This document shows, in pieces, positions 2,611-11,108 of a DNA stretch of 24,331 nt; position 1 is the stretch's first letter, and the number at the start of each line of letters is the position of its first letter. Position numbers and translations under genes: made by a program. Source of the DNA: a virus; the IMG/VR virus record IMGVR_UViG_3300025128_000322, positions 1 to 24,331 of that record; one strand, given 5' to 3'. The notes below the pieces were generated by a model. It did no database searches, had not been told where the DNA came from, and was given only the letters and a program-made list of their open reading frames with translations.

Positions 2611-3702
2611 TTAGTGCACTCCTTTGGTGCGTTTGCGTCGATAACGGGTCCCTTTATTGAGTCCCGTTTTCTCGATTTCGTATAGATCTGCGTTATCTTG
2701 GAGCTCCCGGCGAACGTAATTCGACCAGGGATCAGTTTTCGTTCCAAACTCAACCCCCCAGCCTGCAGTATTTCGTAACAACGCTTTCATCTCGTCAGCT
2801 GTGTATTCGCCATCGCCCATCTGATGCACCATCGCGACAATGGTGGGCGAGAGTCGTTGTTCGCCGTCACCGGCGATAAATTCTTTGAACTGCAAGCTGT
2901 CGCGATCGAGCTCCATCAATTTGGGGTCGATATCGGGACCGTTTCGCAATTCAAAATTGAGCTGCACGGCTCCATCGCGCGGGGCCATGAGAAGTCCGCT
3001 ATCAAACCACCCGTGGAAATATCCAGCACCACGCACTGTCGCAAAGTCGTGTCGGTCTTTGCCGTTGTCCTTTCGTGTGTGATGAACCACCACCACGCTC
3101 ATATCTATCCCGTTCAGGAAGTTTTTATCAGTTAAAGGATTGATAAGATCCGTAAAAACGTCTCGCATGTCGCTATTTCCGCTTTCATCCACCCCCTGCA
3201 TGAACTGACTCAGCGGGTCCAGGCAGATGAAACTCGGCTTGTGTTCGAGAATGATACTGCGGAGCCAATCACGGGAATTGGAAAGATTGATATCTCCCCG
3301 GCCCGTCACGTGAAAGTATTTTCGGATCAGGCGTTGCTGGCCCGGTGAAAAATTGGTTAGCGCCTTCTGTAATCGCCGACCGATGTATTCTTCTTTAATC
3401 TCAGCGTTTAAATATAAAACTGAATGGGGCGAATTAAACTGCATCCCAAGGAATTCCCCGCCACACGCTGCGGTCATTAGCAGCTGCGTCGCGAGATGAC
3501 TTTTCCCCAGTTTCGGAGCTCCGGCAATTAAAACCCGAAACCCTGGAGCCAGAAACGCATCGCCTAACCAACTGCGGGGGCGGGGGAGCATCTCTAGCTC
3601 ATCAATGGTAAAAACCTTACTAGGAGGCTGATCTGGCCGTTTAAAGGGGATAATATTGTCGTATGCCTCTATGGGTGGATCGTCTTCGAAGTCGTCACTC
3701 AT
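2611..3702 (-). CDS. RepA-like AAA ATPase, replicative helicase (AAA_25)
   Basis: A 363-residue RecA-fold ATPase. Walker A is GAPKLGKS at residues 61-68 and Walker B is FICLD at 158-162. A VVHHTRK motif (205-211) and RGAG (224-227) follow, as in the hexameric RSF1010 RepA helicase family. The N-terminal 45 residues carry an acidic, Pro-rich lead and the C-terminal 80 residues form an extra domain ending in basic residues (RYRRKRTK), possibly for DNA contact. It probably unwinds DNA at the phage origin. Supporting context: an iteron array starts 13 bases after its stop. It overlaps the upstream small gene by eight bases. No separate DnaB-type helicase is seen in the window, so this is likely the phage helicase. 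Confidence 0.88.
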   Translation of the reverse strand: MSDDFEDDPPIEAYDNIIPFKRPDQPPSKVFTIDELEMLPRPRSWLGDAFLAPGFRVLIAGAPKLGKSHLATQLLMTAACGGEFLGMQFNSPHSVLYLNAEIKEEYIGRRLQKALTNFSPGQQRLIRKYFHVTGRGDINLSNSRDWLRSIILEHKPSFICLDPLSQFMQGVDESGNSDMRDVFTDLINPLTDKNFLNGIDMSVVVVHHTRKDNGKDRHDFATVRGAGYFHGWFDSGLLMAPRDGAVQLNFELRNGPDIDPKLMELDRDSLQFKEFIAGDGEQRLSPTIVAMVHQMGDGEYTADEMKALLRNTAGWGVEFGTKTDPWSNYVRRELQDNADLYEIEKTGLNKGTRYRRKRTKGVH

Positions 3703-4175: not shown

Positions 4176-4270
4176 TCGTCCACTGTTAGTTGATTCGTAG
4201 AACGATATCGTAGATTGAGCGACTTAGGAAGGGTTCTTGATAAATCGTCCACAATATGTTGATATGTAGA
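4176..4270. promoter_or_regulatory. Immunity region with two operator-like 26-bp repeats
   Basis: Two direct repeats, 4176-4201 and 4245-4270, agree at 20 of 26 positions. The conserved blocks are TCGTCCAC, GTTGAT and GTAGA. Each contains an imperfect dyad TCCAC-N5-GTTGA (4179-4193 and 4248-4262). A perfect 10-bp palindrome ACGATATCGT lies between them at 4202-4211. The first repeat covers the ribosome-binding site of the Cro-like gene; the second ends 21 bases before the preferred start (4292) of the repressor-like gene. This is the expected place for repressor and Cro operators and divergent promoters. A possible plus-strand -35 box is TTGATA at 4237-4242, but no good -10 box pairs with it. 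Confidence 0.75.
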
Positions 4271-4291
4271 CCTCAGTGCTAAGAGATGGAT

Positions 4292-4669
4292 ATGGATACA
4301 TTCGCGAAACGGCTAATCGCCATCAAAGAGAAGAAGGGCCTTTCCCTCGATAATATCTCTCAAGGGGTTACCAGAGCCCTACGAGCTCAAGATGAAACCG
4401 CCCAAGGGATTACGAAATCGGGGATACATCGCTGGACCCAGGGTGCGACCGAACCGCAGAACCGCGATATGTGGAACGCCCTGGCCGACTTTTTAGGTGA
4501 AGACGTGGCGTGGCTGCAGTCAGGCGTTCGACGGCGAGCGAACACCAAGGCAAGGCGCTTAGCCAGAAAAATATCCGAGCTATCCGATGAACATCAAGCG
4601 GGATTAGAAGCGATTATCGATGGCCTCCACCTAACTGGGGAAACCGACAAAAGGAAAAATGGGAAATGA
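4292..4669 (+). CDS. Repressor-like XRE-family regulator
   Basis: A 125-residue protein with an N-terminal helix-turn-helix of XRE type: FAKRLIAIKEKKGLSLDNIS, then a loop insertion, then ITKSGIHRWTQGATEPQNRDMWNALADFLGEDVAWLQSG. The C-terminal third is helical and basic then polar, perhaps a dimer interface. It has no S24/LexA self-cleavage domain, unlike lambda CI, so RecA-induced autocleavage is not expected. ATG at 4286 is open, but ATG at 4292 sits six bases after AAGAG and is the better start. Its stop overlaps the next gene as ATGA. By position, divergent from the Cro-like gene, it is the best candidate for the lysogeny repressor. Confidence 0.82.
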   Translation: MDTFAKRLIAIKEKKGLSLDNISQGVTRALRAQDETAQGITKSGIHRWTQGATEPQNRDMWNALADFLGEDVAWLQSGVRRRANTKARRLARKISELSDEHQAGLEAIIDGLHLTGETDKRKNGK

Positions 4670-5601
4670 AAGTCGATAATGGCTATGTGAGAGCGGAACA
4701 CGATACAGACGCAGCCACGATAGCGCTAATCGCATCCTGGACGCGCAACCTGATCTGCGATCAAAGAAATCGTGGCAACACCACTCATATAAAAATTCGT
4801 CATCTGATGAACGCGAAAATCATTTTCTCGCTTTTTCTGCAAAATTCAGACGATCCAACGGATTTTGAAGGCGGATTCTGTCATCTGGACGAAGTGCGCG
4901 AGGCGTTAAGTCATCTGGCCCCTGGCGATGTTAAAAAATTACTGCAAACACTGAAAAAATTTGGCACGAGAGAGTCGTATCCGACCTATACCGGCCTGTG
5001 GTGGCACCTGGACGAGCACGAAATGTTGCGTCCGACGCAAGCGTTAATCGATTACGATCGGTTCAAGTCGACAACGCTTAAACGATTCGATAGGGAGTTA
5101 TTCGATATATTTGGCGAGTCAGATTTCGGAGATTTCAGGCAGAAACTAATAATTTTCCAGGCCCAACAATGCCAGATGTTTCTGGCGAGCGGGGCCACCA
5201 CCCTACGGGCCTATGGAGCCGTCAGCTATATGGTTCTCCGCCAAATGCTCGGAGCCAACTGGGTGAAAATCGCCGATATAGCGGAATGGCTGGATCTCGA
5301 TACGACACGTTGTACGGACACGCTCCAGCCGTTTTTTGCATACGATACCAAAGTTGGACCGGCCATTGAGTCCCGGCGTTCTAATGATCGGCGGAAAACC
5401 GAGGTGAGAATGTATCTCAGAGACGAATTCGCCACCATTTTCAAAGAGCTAACTTTGGCCAATAACGCGATGTTTGAAACCCCCGACGATTTCTCGGTCG
5501 CCAGTTTTGGGATCGCTAACGCCACCCGCATCGTTCGCCCACCGCTGCGAACGGTGGCCACCCCTGTGCTATCTATCGTGAAAAAAAACCGGGCAATCTA
5601 A
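4666..5601 (+). CDS. Unknown protein with winged-helix-like segment, coupled to repressor
   Basis: A 311-residue soluble protein I cannot assign to a family. Residues about 190-255 (from YMVLRQMLGANWVKIADIAEWLDLDTTR through a basic RRSNDRRKTEVRMYL) look like a winged helix: a helix-turn-helix followed by a basic hairpin. The segment at about 20-55 (WTRNLICDQRNRG to KIIFSLFLQ) may be a second helical DNA-binding unit. It overlaps the repressor stop by four bases (ATGA), so it is made from the same message, probably in the lysogen. Possible roles are a co-regulator, a replication initiator or an exclusion factor; nothing in the sequence decides between them. Its last codons are duplicated just downstream (see the tandem repeat at 5581). 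Confidence 0.75.
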   Translation: MKVDNGYVRAEHDTDAATIALIASWTRNLICDQRNRGNTTHIKIRHLMNAKIIFSLFLQNSDDPTDFEGGFCHLDEVREALSHLAPGDVKKLLQTLKKFGTRESYPTYTGLWWHLDEHEMLRPTQALIDYDRFKSTTLKRFDRELFDIFGESDFGDFRQKLIIFQAQQCQMFLASGATTLRAYGAVSYMVLRQMLGANWVKIADIAEWLDLDTTRCTDTLQPFFAYDTKVGPAIESRRSNDRRKTEVRMYLRDEFATIFKELTLANNAMFETPDDFSVASFGIANATRIVRPPLRTVATPVLSIVKKNRAI

Positions 5602-5620
5602 AAAAAAACCGGGCAATCTA
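5581..5620 (+). repeat. Exact 20-bp tandem duplication over the gene end
   Basis: Positions 5581-5600 and 5601-5620 are identical: eight A, then CCGGGCAATCTA. The first copy holds the last codons and the stop of the 311-residue gene (TAA at 5599-5601). The second copy is untranslated. The A-run makes replication slippage a likely origin. Confidence 0.9.
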
Positions 5621-5649
5621 ATTATTAATCGCGCCATCGCCAGATATTT

Positions 5650-5679
5650 TTGACACGCGTTCTCGTTTTTAATTATAAA
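5650..5679 (+). promoter_or_regulatory. Sigma70-type promoter for the 261-aa gene
   Basis: TTGACA at 5650-5655 and TATAAA at 5674-5679, separated by 18 bases, give a near-consensus promoter 24 bases before the ATG at 5703. A GGGGGGA Shine-Dalgarno sequence follows at 5694-5700. A poor match to the phage operator pattern (GCCAG-N5-TTTGA, 5639-5653) overlaps the -35 box. Confidence 0.7.
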
Positions 5680-5702
5680 TAACCCTCAGCTTTGGGGGGA
5701 CG

Positions 5703-6488
5703 ATGTTAGAAAAAATAGAAAGACTCGATAGTTTTAATCTAAAAGTCGTGGAGCAGTTCGCCGATCTATATCGTTTAGTGGAAGATGAAAAGAAGCCGAC
5801 TTTCGAATATGTGTATATGACACCTCGGGTGCTAGCCATTCCTGATATTAAGGTTAAAACGAAATTCGCCCTGGAGATGAACTACGAGGGGCTCCACGAT
5901 ATCGTCCAGGCGAACACCTCCTATTTCGTGACCGCCGCAAGTGATGGGATTTTCCTCTGTGTGGGCATGAAAAAACCCACTGGCGAATTATTCTTGCTGG
6001 TGGATACACTTAACCCCCGGCACTGGCCCAGCATGTACAAAAATTTGAAGGATACCCCGCTGCTGCGGAGTCATGCTCAAGATCAACCGTGGAATAAAAT
6101 GGTGTTTTCGGCGAGCACTGAGGCTATTTTGCTGGCGGACGAGCGCCATTTGGTCAGCGATTTTAAAGATCCAGATTACAGAGTTTTTATGGATGACAGC
6201 GTTCTCGAAAAAAAGACGCTGACAGAATTATCAGGGGAGCAGCACGAGGCGATCCACTTGGCGTTGTCTGAACAAGTCCCAGGCTATTACGACGGCAACT
6301 TCGCTTTGGCGATTTATGGCATTTTTTCCCCTAATATAGTCGCTCGATTTCGGGATACGGTGTACATCGAAAAAATCGAATCGTCGCTCGCCCAACAAGC
6401 TATCGACTGGGCAAAACGTCACGACGTATTCTGCGATGGTCAAGAGATGGCGGGTTTGATAGACAAATTTTCCGCGACGGTAAGCTAA
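5703..6488 (+). CDS. Unknown 261-aa early protein
   Basis: An acidic soluble protein that I do not recognise. It has no signal peptide, membrane segment or obvious catalytic motif. Notable segments are YVYMTPRVLAIPDIKVKTKF, a block with beta-strand character (YFVTAASDGIFLCVGMKKPTGELFLLVDTLNPRHWP), and a helical C terminus. It has a near-consensus promoter and a strong G-rich ribosome-binding site of its own, and is separated from the recombination cassette by about 66 bases that carry another promoter. It may therefore be expressed independently, perhaps early in infection or in the lysogen. A role against the host or against other phages is possible but is pure inference. Confidence 0.75.
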   Translation: MLEKIERLDSFNLKVVEQFADLYRLVEDEKKPTFEYVYMTPRVLAIPDIKVKTKFALEMNYEGLHDIVQANTSYFVTAASDGIFLCVGMKKPTGELFLLVDTLNPRHWPSMYKNLKDTPLLRSHAQDQPWNKMVFSASTEAILLADERHLVSDFKDPDYRVFMDDSVLEKKTLTELSGEQHEAIHLALSEQVPGYYDGNFALAIYGIFSPNIVARFRDTVYIEKIESSLAQQAIDWAKRHDVFCDGQEMAGLIDKFSATVS

Positions 6489-6491
6489 TCG

Positions 6492-6531
6492 TAAACATTT
6501 TGTTGACGCTCGCAACGCTCTGAGGCATTAT
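6492..6531 (+). promoter_or_regulatory. Promoter of the recombination cassette with operator-like overlap
   Basis: TTGACG at 6503-6508 and CATTAT at 6526-6531, with 17 bases between them, form a plausible promoter about 24 bases before the leader peptide start at 6555. The sequence TAAAC-ATTTT-GTTGA at 6492-6506 covers part of the -35 box and matches the operator pattern TCCAC-N5-GTTGA at eight of ten fixed positions (nine of ten against the symmetric form TCAAC-N5-GTTGA). This suggests repression in the lysogen. Confidence 0.55.
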
Positions 6532-6554
6532 CAGAACCTTTAAGGGGGAAAATA

Positions 6555-6623
6555 ATGCTGCCACTTCTGCGACGATTATGGGACCGATTCCGCGATTTTC
6601 TGGATCGATGGGTGATCGCGTGA
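6555..6623 (+). CDS. 22-aa leader peptide upstream of the Sak4-like gene
   Basis: A tiny reading frame beginning MLPLLRRLWDRFRDFL and ending in VIA. The Shine-Dalgarno sequence AAGGGGG lies at 6542-6548, seven bases before the ATG and better than any site before the next gene. The peptide would form an amphipathic helix with alternating Leu/Trp/Phe and Arg/Asp. Its stop overlaps GTG at 6620 (GTGA), an in-frame start for the ATPase gene that lacks its own strong site. It therefore probably acts as a translational coupler, possibly also as a small functional or membrane-binding peptide. Confidence 0.6.
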   Translation: MLPLLRRLWDRFRDFLDRWVIA

Positions 6624-7375
6624 GTGGTCAGCTAAAGAACGTGCGGCAAGGAATCGACCACGATATTCCCATTAAAATGTGCATTTTTGGGGGACCTGGC
6701 ACTGGCAAAACGACTCTAGGCAGTAAGATTGAAAACAGTCTGCTCGTGGATTTCGAGGGTGGGGCCCGACACGTGAGCGGGAATCGCATCGCCATCAAAA
6801 CCCGCAAGGCGTTCGATGAATTGTTGAGCGAATTGGAGGCCGATGGCGGGAAAACTTATAAGGTGCTCGTTCTGGACACCGTCGACTGGCTCCAGAAAGC
6901 TATTTTTGACGATGTAGCAGCTCAAGCGGGAGCCCCGAACATTGCAGCCATCGAGTTTGGAAAAGGCTATGCAGCAGCACAGCAAGCGCTGTACGGCTAT
7001 CTCGACCGACTCGATGGGCTGATGACGAAAAGCAAAATGGATATCGTTTTTCTGGCACACAGTCAAAAAGCGAAAACCACGGATAATCCAGAACAACACG
7101 AAATCGACCGCCACACGATCAAACTCCAGGTGAATGATAAAGGCGTGGGGATGGGTCCTATCCTAATTGAGTGGGTCGATTATCTTCTGTATGCCACCTA
7201 CGACGATACGTTCTATAAAGATAAGGGGCGGACCAAGGCGAAGGCCGGGGACCGAGTGTTGAGAACCACCGGCCATACCTATTGGCAAGCGAAAAGCCGT
7301 CGACCGATAAAAGACGTGATCCCGATGAATTGGGAAGCTTTCAAAACTGAGCACGCGGAGGCACTAATAAAATGA
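6620..7375 (+). CDS. Sak4-like RecA-fold single-strand annealing ATPase (AAA_24)
   Basis: A 251-residue ATPase if it starts at GTG 6620; ATG starts at 6578 and 6608 are open but lack a ribosome-binding site and precede the conserved region. Walker A is GGPGTGKTT at residues 24-32 and Walker B is VLVLD at about 82-86. The segment GFxFAHSQKAK-like FLAHSQKAK follows. This is the layout of phage Sak4 (AAA_24) proteins, short RecA-like recombinases that promote homologous strand annealing together with a phage SSB. An SSB-like gene and a nuclease gene follow, which supports this. Start codon coupling to the leader peptide suggests controlled amounts. It ends overlapping the next gene as ATGA. Confidence 0.85.
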   Translation: MSGQLKNVRQGIDHDIPIKMCIFGGPGTGKTTLGSKIENSLLVDFEGGARHVSGNRIAIKTRKAFDELLSELEADGGKTYKVLVLDTVDWLQKAIFDDVAAQAGAPNIAAIEFGKGYAAAQQALYGYLDRLDGLMTKSKMDIVFLAHSQKAKTTDNPEQHEIDRHTIKLQVNDKGVGMGPILIEWVDYLLYATYDDTFYKDKGRTKAKAGDRVLRTTGHTYWQAKSRRPIKDVIPMNWEAFKTEHAEALIK

Positions 7376-7617
7376 CCGAAATTAAAATAACCGATTACAT
7401 AACACCCCGAGAGTTTCAGGAATTGTATGCAAATATTTTTCCCACTCTTCGCGGGTTGCAATATCACCTACAACTGAGAGAGACAAACGGGTGGCTAGAA
7501 CATAACGTCGTGATGGAGGTCAGAGCGAGCACAGACCGACGGGTCACTCGCCTGTTAATCAATCCGAAAGCCTACGAAGAATTAACCATTAACCAATTAA
7601 GGGAAAACCATGCCTAG
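7372..7617 (+). CDS. Unknown small protein in the recombination operon
   Basis: An 81-residue soluble protein with no motif I recognise. A central part (GWLEHNVVMEVRASTDRRVTRLLIN) looks like beta strands, and the ends look helical. It overlaps the Sak4-like gene by four bases (ATGA) and the SSB gene by eight, so it is translated with them and may modulate recombination. Function is unknown. Confidence 0.72.
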   Translation: MTEIKITDYITPREFQELYANIFPTLRGLQYHLQLRETNGWLEHNVVMEVRASTDRRVTRLLINPKAYEELTINQLRENHA

Positions 7618-8101
7618 AGCCGATTATATTGCTGGTGAGCGGGTGGAGCTTGAAGACGGAGACGAGCTCCTCGATTCACTAACGCCCGAGCGGGTGCGAA
7701 TTAAAGAAGGAGAACACCTGTTTCAAATTCTGGAGTGCGAGTATTATCAGAATACCAAGGGCAACTCCATCCAACGGTTATGGTTAAAGAGTAAAACCGA
7801 GCCGGATGGGACGTTTGTAAATTACTATTCCACGATCAAGCGCGACGGAAAAAAACAAATTGATAATCTCATGGTGTCGCTCGCGATCCAAAGCGCGTGC
7901 GGGATAACCGAACGAGCGGTCGATCAACAAACGACCGTTAAACTGGAAGATCAAGAATTCACCGCCGATGTTAAATGGCGACCAGGAAAAGACGGTGGCG
8001 ATCCTTTTTTGAATTTGAAAAACCCTCGGGCGGTTGCAGCTTCATCTGACAATCCAGCCGTCATCCCCGAGGATGATTTCGACGACGATATCCCGTTCTG
8101 A
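7610..8101 (+). CDS. Single-stranded DNA-binding protein (DUF669-like)
   Basis: A 163-residue protein with a predicted beta-rich core (about residues 25-135) containing aromatic and basic positions suited to binding single-stranded DNA. Its C terminus is an acidic tail ending DDFDDDIPF, almost the same as the E. coli SSB tip (DFDDDIPF) that docks host and phage replication and repair proteins. Sequence outside the tail resembles phage DUF669-type SSBs found beside Sak4 genes. It probably coats single-stranded DNA during recombination and replication and recruits the neighbouring ATPase or exonuclease. Its TGA overlaps the next ATG by one base. Confidence 0.82.
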   Translation: MPRADYIAGERVELEDGDELLDSLTPERVRIKEGEHLFQILECEYYQNTKGNSIQRLWLKSKTEPDGTFVNYYSTIKRDGKKQIDNLMVSLAIQSACGITERAVDQQTTVKLEDQEFTADVKWRPGKDGGDPFLNLKNPRAVAASSDNPAVIPEDDFDDDIPF

Positions 8102-9195
8102 TGCTGGACGAGTTGATCGATAAACACGTTTCGATCGATCCAACAAGGGATAATAGAGCCCACCTGGGAGGCTCGCTCATCCCGCACGATTGTCCTCGAT
8201 GGGTGTGGCTGACTTGGCACTGGTCGGTCGCACCCATCACCGATCCTAAGCGATTGCGTATTTTTGACGATGGCCACGCCATCGAAGCTGCCACCATCGA
8301 GCGGATGGAATCATTCTGTAGCGTTGAAACTCGTCCGGGGGGAGAGCAAATTGGCGGATCGATGACAGGGACCGGGGGGCACGTCCAATTTCATCTCGAT
8401 AACATTATTTCGGGGATTCCGGGGAAGCCCGGTCGCTATCTGCTGGAGGTGAAGTCGGCTAGTCAGACATCATTCAAAAAACTATTACGGGTGGAGAGCT
8501 ACGAAGAATGGAATCCGCAGTATTTCGGCCAAATTCAGTTTTACCTCGGAGCTTTAGGGGAGCAGGGCGACGAGCTCGATGGAGCTTTTGCGCTGATCTA
8601 CAATAAAAATGATGGATCGTATTACAGTGAATTCATCGAGTTTGATTATGCAAAATGGAGTGGTCTAAAGGCCCGAGCTTTGTTTTTACTTGAAGCGCGA
8701 ACGCCCCCGGATCGAGAATATTCCCGAAGTTTTTACAAGGCTAAGAATTTCATGTCCGCCGACGATTACGGCGTGTACTTCCAGGATCTAACGCCATTGC
8801 GTTCCAACTGTCGCAACTGCGTCTTTTCGAGGATTAAAACGGACGGGGATAATGGAGCCTGGGGCTGTGCCTTACACAAAAAGTCGCTGTCGTACGCGGA
8901 CCAACTGGCCGGATGCGATCGGCACTTGTGGATTCCCGAGCTAGTGCCGGGGGAGTTGATCGAAATCAGCAGGGAAGGGGCCAGCTATGAATCCAAACGC
9001 GGAAGCTTTACTAATGGGAAAGATCATCTCCCATCGAACGAAATATCGTTTCTAACTAGAACCAACCCGCACACCGAAAAAGCCTATGATTTCGATGCGC
9101 TGGATCAGCTGAGGGATATCCGAAAGGAATTTCCCAATAGCGATTTATCCGTCGAGCCGATTACAAAAAAACCGAAAGATCAAGATTCTCCATGA
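8101..9195 (+). CDS. PD-(D/E)XK exonuclease with probable Fe-S cluster
   Basis: A 364-residue nuclease of the Cas4/RecB-like group. Active-site features: GHAIEAATIE (59-68), Asp100 in GHVQFHLD, Glu116-Val-Lys118 in LLEVKSAS, and QIQFY (144-148, the Q-x-x-x-Y motif). Five cysteines, Cys31 in DCPRWVWL plus Cys237, Cys240, Cys256 and Cys272, are placed as in Cas4 and AddB-type nucleases that bind a [4Fe-4S] cluster. It should resect double-stranded ends to make single strands for the Sak4-like annealing protein, so it is the exonuclease of this recombination cassette. It ends convergent with the minus-strand gene at 9161, overlapping it by 35 bases. Confidence 0.85.
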   Translation: MLDELIDKHVSIDPTRDNRAHLGGSLIPHDCPRWVWLTWHWSVAPITDPKRLRIFDDGHAIEAATIERMESFCSVETRPGGEQIGGSMTGTGGHVQFHLDNIISGIPGKPGRYLLEVKSASQTSFKKLLRVESYEEWNPQYFGQIQFYLGALGEQGDELDGAFALIYNKNDGSYYSEFIEFDYAKWSGLKARALFLLEARTPPDREYSRSFYKAKNFMSADDYGVYFQDLTPLRSNCRNCVFSRIKTDGDNGAWGCALHKKSLSYADQLAGCDRHLWIPELVPGELIEISREGASYESKRGSFTNGKDHLPSNEISFLTRTNPHTEKAYDFDALDQLRDIRKEFPNSDLSVEPITKKPKDQDSP

Positions 9196-9511
9196 CCAGT
9201 CGTTGATCGCCTAGGTCTAAAACACTGACCTCTCGGCGCTGCTCGCCTTTGAATAGCTGACAGAGCCCCCAGGATATGAAGGGAAAGCCCGCAAAATCGC
9301 CTTCGGTGGGTTTGCTCCGCTCATTCCAATTGTTAGAGCTCGATTTCCAGTCTTCGATGGTTTCTTGGGTCGTCACACAGCCAACCTGCCAGCCGTAATC
9401 GCTATCTATAATCTCAGAATCGCTCAGCGATTGGATCGCCTCCATCGCGGAATCCGATATTTGTGGTTCAAATGCACTTTCCATAATTTTCTCCATTGAT
9501 TGATTATCCAT
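9161..9511 (-). CDS. Unknown small acidic protein downstream of int
   Basis: A protein of 116 residues, or 107 if it starts at the ATG at 9484, which has GGAG seven bases ahead; the first ATG (9511) follows the integrase stop by one base. It is acidic and Ser-rich (SDSAMEAIQSLSDSEIIDSDYG), with a second half carrying Trp and Phe residues (GDFAGFPFISWGLCQLF). No DNA-binding motif is visible, so I see no support for calling it an excisionase. It is co-transcribed with integrase and converges with the exonuclease gene. Function is unknown. Confidence 0.6.
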   Translation of the reverse strand: MDNQSMEKIMESAFEPQISDSAMEAIQSLSDSEIIDSDYGWQVGCVTTQETIEDWKSSSNNWNERSKPTEGDFAGFPFISWGLCQLFKGEQRREVSVLDLGDQRLVMENLDLSVFL

Positions 9512-9512
9512 A

Positions 9513-10637
9513 TTACTTGTTGAGCAGCAATAGGGTCGCCTCTGCTGCTTGTTGCTCCTGTAATTTCATGTACCGAGTCACCATCGACGCCGATTTCCAC
9601 CCGCCAGCGGACATTAGCTGAGTTAGGCTCGCGCCTTTTGCTCCTAGCTCGGTCGCCCACGTGTGGCGGATGTGATGGATCGATAAACGTTCACCCCATA
9701 GTGGATCTGGTTCGTCTAATCCGGCTTTGACTCTGGCTTTTCTGAATTCTTCATACGCCTTGTAGTGGGTCGTCACCGCCCCGGTTTTTGTGTGGCGATG
9801 AATTCTTTTCGCTGGAAACACAAAAGGGGAGGCGGTTTGCCGGAACTGCTGCTCATGTCGATTTAGAAAAGTGGTTAGATCCTCACCGATGAACACTTTT
9901 CGATCGCTGCCATTTTTAGTATTTCGAAAAAATAACGAGTGGGCCACGCCGTCGTAATCCGATGGCTGAATGTCATCCCATAATAGATTAGAAATTTCGG
10001 ATGACCTGGCCCCTGTCGCAAAGGCAATTCGTAGAAACAAACTGAGCATACTTTGTTCATCGTCGGCAGCTGCGAGTAAACGATCGCGCTCCTCGGACGT
10101 ATAGGTCCTGTTCCTACTTTTGGAATCGTTAAGGCGCTCATAGTCCTCATCCATGATCGGATTGTGGCCCATCCATTTCTGTTTCTTCGCAAAATTGAAT
10201 AACGACGAAGCGTGGCTCTCGTAGTTGTAACGAGATTTTGAGGACCATCCGAATCGGTACTGCAAGTCGTCAAAGAGCGATTCGCACGCAGCGACGTTAA
10301 ATCGTCCGAGCGGGATGGTGGAAAAACCGCTGTTCGTCAATTTAATTAACCCGTATTTCCGATCCGTAATTGTCCTCGGGGAGAGGGGTCGGCGGTTATT
10401 CGCCAAGATGGGACCGCTTAAATATTTTTCGACCGCCTCACCGAATGTCACCTTGTCAATCCGATTCGACACGATACCTTTATTTTTTGCGATCCGATCT
10501 TCGACCTCGATGCAGAATTTTTTAGCATCTTTTTTATTGGTAAAGCGCTCGTAGATTTTATGGCCGGAGGTTTTGCGATCCACCGATACAATGTAGTAGG
10601 TGTATTTTCCGTCTTTTTTGACCCGTGGTTTAATCAT
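9513..10637 (-). CDS. int: Tyrosine integrase
   Basis: A 374-residue site-specific recombinase. The catalytic residues are Arg211 (GARSSEIS), Lys241 (TKNGSDRKV), His321-x-x-Arg324 (HHIRHTWATELG), Trp347 (GGWKSAS) and nucleophile Tyr356 (RYMKL). The N-terminal 60 residues are basic with a strand-rich AP2/arm-binding look, and a core-binding SAM-like domain covers about 60-165. The ATG has AGGAG ten bases upstream. An exact operator-like sequence (10666-10680) lies 29 bases before the start, so repression by the phage repressor is likely. The gene sits beside a tRNA-Ser gene, a common phage attachment site, and integrates or excises the phage genome. Confidence 0.95.
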   Translation of the reverse strand: MIKPRVKKDGKYTYYIVSVDRKTSGHKIYERFTNKKDAKKFCIEVEDRIAKNKGIVSNRIDKVTFGEAVEKYLSGPILANNRRPLSPRTITDRKYGLIKLTNSGFSTIPLGRFNVAACESLFDDLQYRFGWSSKSRYNYESHASSLFNFAKKQKWMGHNPIMDEDYERLNDSKSRNRTYTSEERDRLLAAADDEQSMLSLFLRIAFATGARSSEISNLLWDDIQPSDYDGVAHSLFFRNTKNGSDRKVFIGEDLTTFLNRHEQQFRQTASPFVFPAKRIHRHTKTGAVTTHYKAYEEFRKARVKAGLDEPDPLWGERLSIHHIRHTWATELGAKGASLTQLMSAGGWKSASMVTRYMKLQEQQAAEATLLLLNK

Positions 10638-10665
10638 CTCAATTCCGCTCCTATCGACCTATAAA

Positions 10666-10680
10666 TCCACTTAATGTTGA
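10666..10680 (+). promoter_or_regulatory. Operator-like site upstream of int
   Basis: TCCAC-TTAAT-GTTGA matches exactly all ten fixed positions of the dyad found twice in the immunity region. It lies 29 bases upstream of the integrase start, in the place where a promoter for int would be. It is the main evidence that the same regulator controls integration. Confidence 0.65.
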
Positions 10681-10715
10681 CGATATTACGCCCTTTTTAT
10701 TCAAGTTACAAATAG

Positions 10716-10735
10716 AATTCGGGCGAATTTCGGGC
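10716..10735 (+). repeat. Candidate integrase arm-site pair, copy 1
   Basis: A 20-base element built of two TTCGGGC units 11 bases apart (AATTCGGGCGA and ATTTCGGGC). It matches the copy at 10992-11011 at 19 of 20 positions. Paired short direct repeats between integrase and the att core are typical of arm-type integrase sites. Confidence 0.55.
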
Positions 10736-10991
10736 TAATGTGGACAAAATAGGGGTATTTATGGGATTCAAAAGAACCCTAAAAAAAATATAAGTTATTG
10801 TTTTTATTAAGTATTAAAGCTTAAAACGTTAATTGAATGGACGCACTACGCGCCGTTCTTGAAATCATTAAAATCGCTGATTGGCATTGATTCGTAATGA
10901 TAGAAACTGACCCAAATAGCCCTAAAATCAAGGCTTTTGTGAGCTTTGGCTAACTGAGGTAAACTGCGCCAACTTGAAGTGTTTGGAATTT

Positions 10992-11011
10992 AATTCGGGC
11001 GAAATTCGGGC
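10992..11011 (+). repeat. Candidate integrase arm-site pair, copy 2
   Basis: Second copy of the 20-base element, differing from the first at one position (T to A at position 13 of the unit). It ends six bases before the 5' end of the tRNA gene, so it may also overlap tRNA promoter or leader sequence. Confidence 0.55.
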
Positions 11012-11017
11012 GAAAAT

Positions 11018-11108
11018 GGAGGGGTGGCAGAGCTTGGTTTATTGCACCAGTCTTGAAAACTGACGACGTTCATAGCGTCCGTGGGTTCGAATCCCACCCC
11101 CTCCACCA
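11018..11108 (+). tRNA. tRNA-Ser (anticodon UGA), complete with encoded CCA
   Basis: A full cloverleaf can be drawn. Acceptor stem: GGAGGGG with CCCCTCC. D stem: GCA with TGC, loop containing GG. Anticodon loop: CTTGAAA, giving UGA. Long variable arm: GACG with CGTC, as in class II serine tRNAs. T arm: GTGGG-TTCGAAT-CCCAC. CCA is encoded at 11106-11108. Two oddities are a C-A mismatch at the outer pair of the anticodon stem (27-43) and an A instead of the usual G discriminator at 11105. It lies between integrase and the last late gene, six bases from that gene's stop and on the opposite strand. It is either a phage-carried tRNA or the attachment-site tRNA. Confidence 0.9.

Follow-up and report, generated by a model that had tools for sequence, protein, structure and literature searches.

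A Dyad Repeated at Four Predicted Promoters of an Uncultured Phage Is a Probable Operator of Its Immunity Regulators

Results

An Operator-Like Dyad Recurs at Four Predicted Promoters

A short dyad occurs four times, in three separate regions spanning 6.5 kb, in the DNA of an uncultured temperate phage, and we consider the recurrence genuine and probably functional. In our view these copies probably serve as operators for the regulators of the phage's immunity, namely a CI-like repressor and, probably, also a Cro-like protein. On the most likely reading, one immunity regulator would switch off the repressor and Cro-like genes, the recombination genes and the integrase gene together, in a manner much like that of lambda. 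The window analyzed was a whole virus record, a single metagenome contig of 24,331 bases; it is possibly a fragment of a genome, and hence the list of sites may be incomplete. The sites and the features around them are collected in Table 1.

Scanning both strands of the whole record with the pattern TCCAC-N5-GTTGA revealed exact matches at 4179-4193, 4248-4262 and 10666-10680, all on the plus strand and thus in the same orientation, as a preliminary description of this DNA had reported. That description had also called for a scan of the whole phage, and the pattern was not found inside genes: near-palindromic self-matches aside, the 24,331 bases contained no further match on either strand. The looser pattern TCNAC-N5-GTTGA returned the same three matches and none extra, and the pattern read backwards returned zero matches in the same 24,331 bases. 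A near copy, TAAAC-N5-GTTGA, which departs from the pattern at two of its ten fixed positions, is present at 6492-6506, where, in agreement with the earlier observation of an overlapping -35 box, it overlaps the TTGACG of a strong predicted sigma70-like promoter. All four sites are non-coding, in a record of which non-coding DNA makes up 4.8%.

The two arms are reverse complements of each other save at one position, and the sites are therefore (imperfect) dyads. When the sites were aligned with their flanks, a 19-bp dyad emerged, CGTCMAC-N5-GTTGACG. Its outer CG, absent from the pattern first described, is found in five of the eight half-sites, with at least one such arm in every site.

Each copy of the dyad lies at a promoter predicted by consensus, and two of these predicted promoters are among the best 15 of the 48,602 positions scanned. 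The scan used a simple sigma70 matrix of generic hexamer frequencies, and the promoter ranks are therefore approximate. In the case of cro, an alternative promoter at 4253-4282 scored about equally with the one listed in Table 1.

Table 1. Candidate Operators, Predicted Promoters and Genes in the 24,331-Base Record
Feature	Position	Strand	Remarks
Operator copy 1 (candidate)	4177..4195, core 4179-4193 CGTCCACTGTTAGTTGATT	.	just 3' of predicted cro start site, over cro ribosome-binding region
Operator copy 2 (candidate)	4246..4264, core 4248-4262 CGTCCACAATATGTTGATA	.	spacer and -10 of predicted cI promoter
Operator copy 3 (candidate)	6490..6508, core 6492-6506 CGTAAACATTTTGTTGACG	.	overlaps -35 of predicted recombination operon promoter
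Operator copy 4 (candidate)	10664..10682, core 10666-10680 AATCCACTTAATGTTGACG	.	at predicted int transcription start
cro promoter, predicted, weak	4202..4230	-	TTCCTA-17-TATCGT; rank 290/48,602
cI promoter, predicted	4237..4265	+	TTGATA-17-TGATAT with extended -10; rank 38/48,602
Recombination operon promoter, predicted	6503..6531	+	TTGACG-17-CATTAT; rank about 7-8 of 48,602
int promoter, predicted	10683..10711	-	TTGTAA-17-TAATAT; rank 14/48,602
RepA-like AAA_25 helicase/primase	2611..3702	-	downstream of cro
Cro-like HTH protein, 71 aa	3958..4173	-	weak YdaS / carph-isopro similarity; first gene of leftward replication operon
CI-like XRE repressor, 127 aa	4286..4669	+	phrog_4 transcriptional repressor, E 6.5e-8; weak DicA/RstR similarity
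Two orphan genes, 311 and 261 aa	4666..6488	+	between cI and recombination operon, place of lambda rexAB
Recombination operon: Sak4-like annealing ATPase, small ORF, SSB, Cas4-type exonuclease	6578..9195	+	PHROGs and Pfam
Tyrosine integrase	9513..10637	-	Pfam PF00589, E 1.5e-22; phrog_1

Statistical Support for the Sites

The preliminary description had put the expected frequency of the ten-base pattern at once per million positions. This figure is right for a pattern fixed beforehand (1e-6 per position), but it ignores the fact that the pattern was chosen after it had been seen. In order-1 Markov copies of the record, chance alone yields about four words of the form 5-N5-5 that are present at least three times, and a near-palindromic triple of this form turns up in about 5% of such windows (5.5% when only non-coding DNA is considered and any gap from 0 to 12 is allowed). 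The case is therefore carried by a fairer test, in which only the two sites that lie between the divergently transcribed regulator genes were used to define the motif, with which the rest of the record was then scanned. With a symmetrised matrix built from 4179 and 4248 alone, the next two best of all 24,331 positions were 10666 and 6492, with held-out E-values (2-bp flanks included) of 0.001 and 0.007, respectively. Below these two the scores fall sharply, and the positions concerned are genic with one partial exception. Likewise, when each site was left out in turn, it was never outscored by a position that is not one of the four. The E-value for copy 1 was 0.048 in this analysis, and the held-out and leave-one-out values together range from 0.0006 to 0.05.

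The earlier proposal that the immunity region, int and the promoter of the recombination genes have an operator in common is thus well supported, by the held-out statistics and by the positions of the promoters, as far as the four sites are concerned. A weak fifth site, which had been placed over the -35 at 5650, did not withstand the same analysis. Its best alignment, at 5639-5653, scores at the level of chance (about 0.4-1.2 such matches are expected in non-coding DNA alone, and p is about 0.1 within its own intergenic region), and we rejected it as an operator. The promoter at 5650-5679 (TTGACA-18-TATAAA) is the best sigma70-like promoter of the record and is located upstream of the orphan 261-aa gene, in the region 5650-5702. 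Given that no convincing operator is present there, this promoter should remain on in a lysogen, in which the 261-aa gene may be expressed.

Genes Around the Sites

Two of the sites are flanked by the divergent genes for the XRE and the Cro-like proteins, an arrangement that supports their assignment as operators. To the left, the gene for the 71-aa Cro-like protein is followed by a small gene and by the RepA-like helicase gene, beside which lie five iteron-like repeats of CTACCGATATAT (2512-2601) that are likely to be a replication origin. To the right, the gene for the 127-aa repressor is followed by the two orphan genes and then by the genes for Sak4, a small ORF, SSB and the Cas4-type exonuclease, and int faces all of these.

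The 127-aa protein matched the NCBIfam families RstR (E 1.2e-4, 22.3 bits, cut-off 80) and DicA (E 0.0066, 16.3 bits, cut-off 101), in neither case reaching the curated cut-off for this group of short repressors. Searches of Pfam, PHROGs and NCBIfam returned only HTH-domain matches for it and no peptidase or S24/LexA-like C-terminal autocleavage domain; induction by self-cleavage is therefore unlikely. The orphan 311-aa and 261-aa proteins had no match in Pfam, PHROGs or PADLOC, the former giving only sub-threshold noise in NCBIfam. Structure prediction gave models too poor for a fold search both for the repressor (pLDDT 56) and for the 311-aa protein (pLDDT 35).

Several other elements were seen in this part of the record. 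A tandem repeat of about 20 bp, in which AAAAAAAACCGGGCAATCTA occurs twice, extends across the end of the 311-aa gene (5582-5620). A 22-codon ORF at 6555-6623 has a strong ribosome-binding site, AGGGGG, and its end overlaps, within GTGA, a GTG at 6620 from which the Sak4 gene may start; the ORF may be a translationally coupled leader. Finally, two 34-bp repeats with ATTCGGGCGAA flank the stretch between int and the tRNA-Ser(TGA) gene (10711-11108), which is complete (11018-11108); the repeats are possible arm-type sites for the integrase, and the attachment site may lie in the tRNA gene.

A Proposed Circuit and Its Alternatives

Both the identity of the binder and the direction of regulation are matters that we infer. 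Because the sites are placed where repression is required in a lysogen, we favor their shared use by the two regulators with the repressor as main binder. The 127-aa DicA/RstR-like repressor is likelier than the 71-aa protein to be that main binder, although the 71-aa protein probably binds the sites as well. A dimer of the repressor, and probably also the Cro-like protein, would recognize CGTCMAC-N5-GTTGACG. When bound at 4179 it would block the start of transcription of the cro-replication operon; occupancy of 6492 and of 10666 would mask the -35 of the recombination operon and the start of int, respectively. Binding at 4248 would cover the spacer and -10 of the promoter that drives the repressor gene, so that the repressor would limit its own level or be silenced by Cro. 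A lysogen would have replication, recombination and int all switched off, and a newly infected cell would make int until the repressor accumulates. It is conceivable, and we put it forward tentatively, that the circuit is minimal, with one operator per promoter, a short, non-cleavable repressor that directly shuts off replication, recombination, its own gene and the int promoter, and a brief pulse of int at infection that calls for no separate CII-like activator. Some observations count against the reading of the four sites as operators of the immunity regulators: there is a single copy per promoter; the copy on the cro side is the weakest match, though cro should be the most important target; and the promoter predicted for cro scores poorly (rank 290).

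The sites could instead serve mainly the 71-aa Cro-like protein, which would shut off cI from 4248, limit itself from 4179 and lower early recombination and int in lytic growth, while the CI-like protein used other sites. The placement of copy 2 over the predicted cI promoter and of copy 1 over the start of cro is the classic pattern of control by Cro, and some relatives carry a Cro-like gene but neither a cI nor an int that is annotated. We nevertheless regard this as rather unlikely, as the motif is absent near cro in the Cro-bearing relatives, there is no second conspicuous repeated dyad that the CI-like protein could use, and these sites are exactly at the cro and recombination promoters, where repressor is required in a lysogen. 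Much less probable still is a host regulator that the phage exploits. A host motif is conceivable, the search for a host by tRNA having given no match, but two of the copies lie between divergent phage regulator genes, the usual location of phage operators, the motif is confined to these four phage promoters, and in viral contigs its 21-bp form falls mostly inside genes, as expected by chance. Least probable, if by a narrow measure, is a likeness that reflects chance and the -35 box (TTGAC) that promoters have in common, the sites then having no single binder. GTTGA does include the -35 core, and about 5% of random windows do give one near-palindromic triple; yet only in copy 3 does GTTGAC serve as the -35 of a good, correctly oriented promoter, the TCMAC arm and the CG flank are not explained by promoters, and the held-out and leave-one-out E-values also argue against it. 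Shared use with the repressor as main binder is thus the reading that we retain.

Searches for Relatives and for the Motif Elsewhere

No close relatives of the XRE repressor, Sak4, the integrase, the Cas4 exonuclease, the 311-aa protein or RepA were found in viral contigs, or of the XRE repressor in genomes, the nearest being two distant ones at 32% identity. Nor did the viral contigs, or the genomes in the case of the XRE repressor, contain a relative of either regulator suited to comparative footprinting, and no homologous phage was found in which conservation of the sites could be seen, which counts against the proposed operators. In viral contigs the paired-operator pattern matched 25 loci, and among the matches listed those read were coding repeats or unrelated; the 21-bp dyad matched 51 loci, almost all in genes and none with a protein resembling either regulator. 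A search for the host with the tRNA-Ser sequence had no match in genomes. The operator motif was also absent from the cro regions of virulent relatives. In the immunity region of MG40, which carries a Salmonella relative of the CI-like protein, the dyads are unrelated.

In two of the virulent relatives, Idiomarinaceae phage 1N2-2 and an uncultured spring phage, neither of which has an annotated cI or int, the Cro-like and repA/primase-helicase genes diverge directly from the genes running from the AAA ATPase to the exonuclease (Sak4-SSB-exonuclease). The present phage accordingly resembles such an arrangement into which a lysogeny block has been placed, with a candidate operator at each of the promoters that point outward. 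In phage 1N2-2, TGTGTTGAC and GTCAACACA stand on either side of the predicted cro promoter (31950-32010) as inverted arms that resemble the present ones but come in the opposite order.

Comparison with Known Systems

In lambda the gene order is replication, cro, cI, accessory genes (rexAB) and recombination, and CI silences replication via PR and recombination and int/xis via PL. The present phage resembles it in its divergent CI-like and Cro-like HTH genes (both weak HTH matches) with shared candidate dyad operators between them, in having replication behind cro, recombination beyond the cI block and accessory genes in between, and in having operators on both sides, the second lying at the early recombination promoter beyond cI (6492-6506, over the -35 of the Sak4 operon). 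It differs in having one operator per promoter instead of tripartite clusters (the matrix scan of the record gives no further copies), a repressor without a cleavable C-terminal domain of the S24/LexA-like type, and an int with its own candidate operator and predicted promoter. The earlier statement that such silencing is something lambda CI does only in part was overstated, as lambda CI also shuts off replication, recombination and int/xis; what does differ is the separate operator directly on the int promoter. The contrast is therefore one of wiring and not of scope. A limited literature search, in which absence proves little, found no description of a repressor operator directly on an int promoter.

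Three other systems offer partial parallels. DicA and DicC of the Qin prophage both act at the same region (PMC10448788). As in the present phage, the gene for a short, non-cleavable CI-like repressor (135 aa versus 127 here) faces that for a small Cro-like protein, and operators lie both between the two genes and at another promoter (PMC10448788), although the similarity is under the curated cut-off; the comparison covers proteins and layout. In SPbeta the single master repressor MrpR acts at a 15-bp element, SPBRE, which lies in intergenic regions and was noticed first by sequence and later shown to be the operator (PMC10516654). Here too one motif is repeated in intergenic regions and was found by sequence alone, but MrpR is a recombinase-fold protein rather than an XRE protein and the element differs. 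The gp33 repressor of mycobacteriophage BPs acts at palindromic operators dispersed over five regulatory regions of the phage genome; one of them lies in the PR spacer and another downstream of the repressor promoter (PMC4557955). The present phage shares with BPs a short repressor and palindromic operators spread over the genome; the BPs operators, however, consist of two 12-bp half-sites with a variable spacer, and in BPs a single promoter, Prep, serves both int and the repressor gene (PMC4557955), whereas int here has its own predicted promoter and operator.

Like the regulons of BPs and SPbeta, then, the present phage has the same predicted operator at several spread promoters; the sites are not stoperators of the L5 type, which are asymmetric, block elongation and are numerous within and between genes, the present sites being dyads at promoters, with none in a gene, even if the three exact copies do have one orientation in common. 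The general principle of one repressor with dispersed operators is already known. If our interpretation is correct, the sequence of an uncultured phage would by itself have revealed a large part of its immunity regulon, with test sites named, and the phage would be a compact case of an integrase directly under an immunity regulator, as against mainly via an activator as in lambda.
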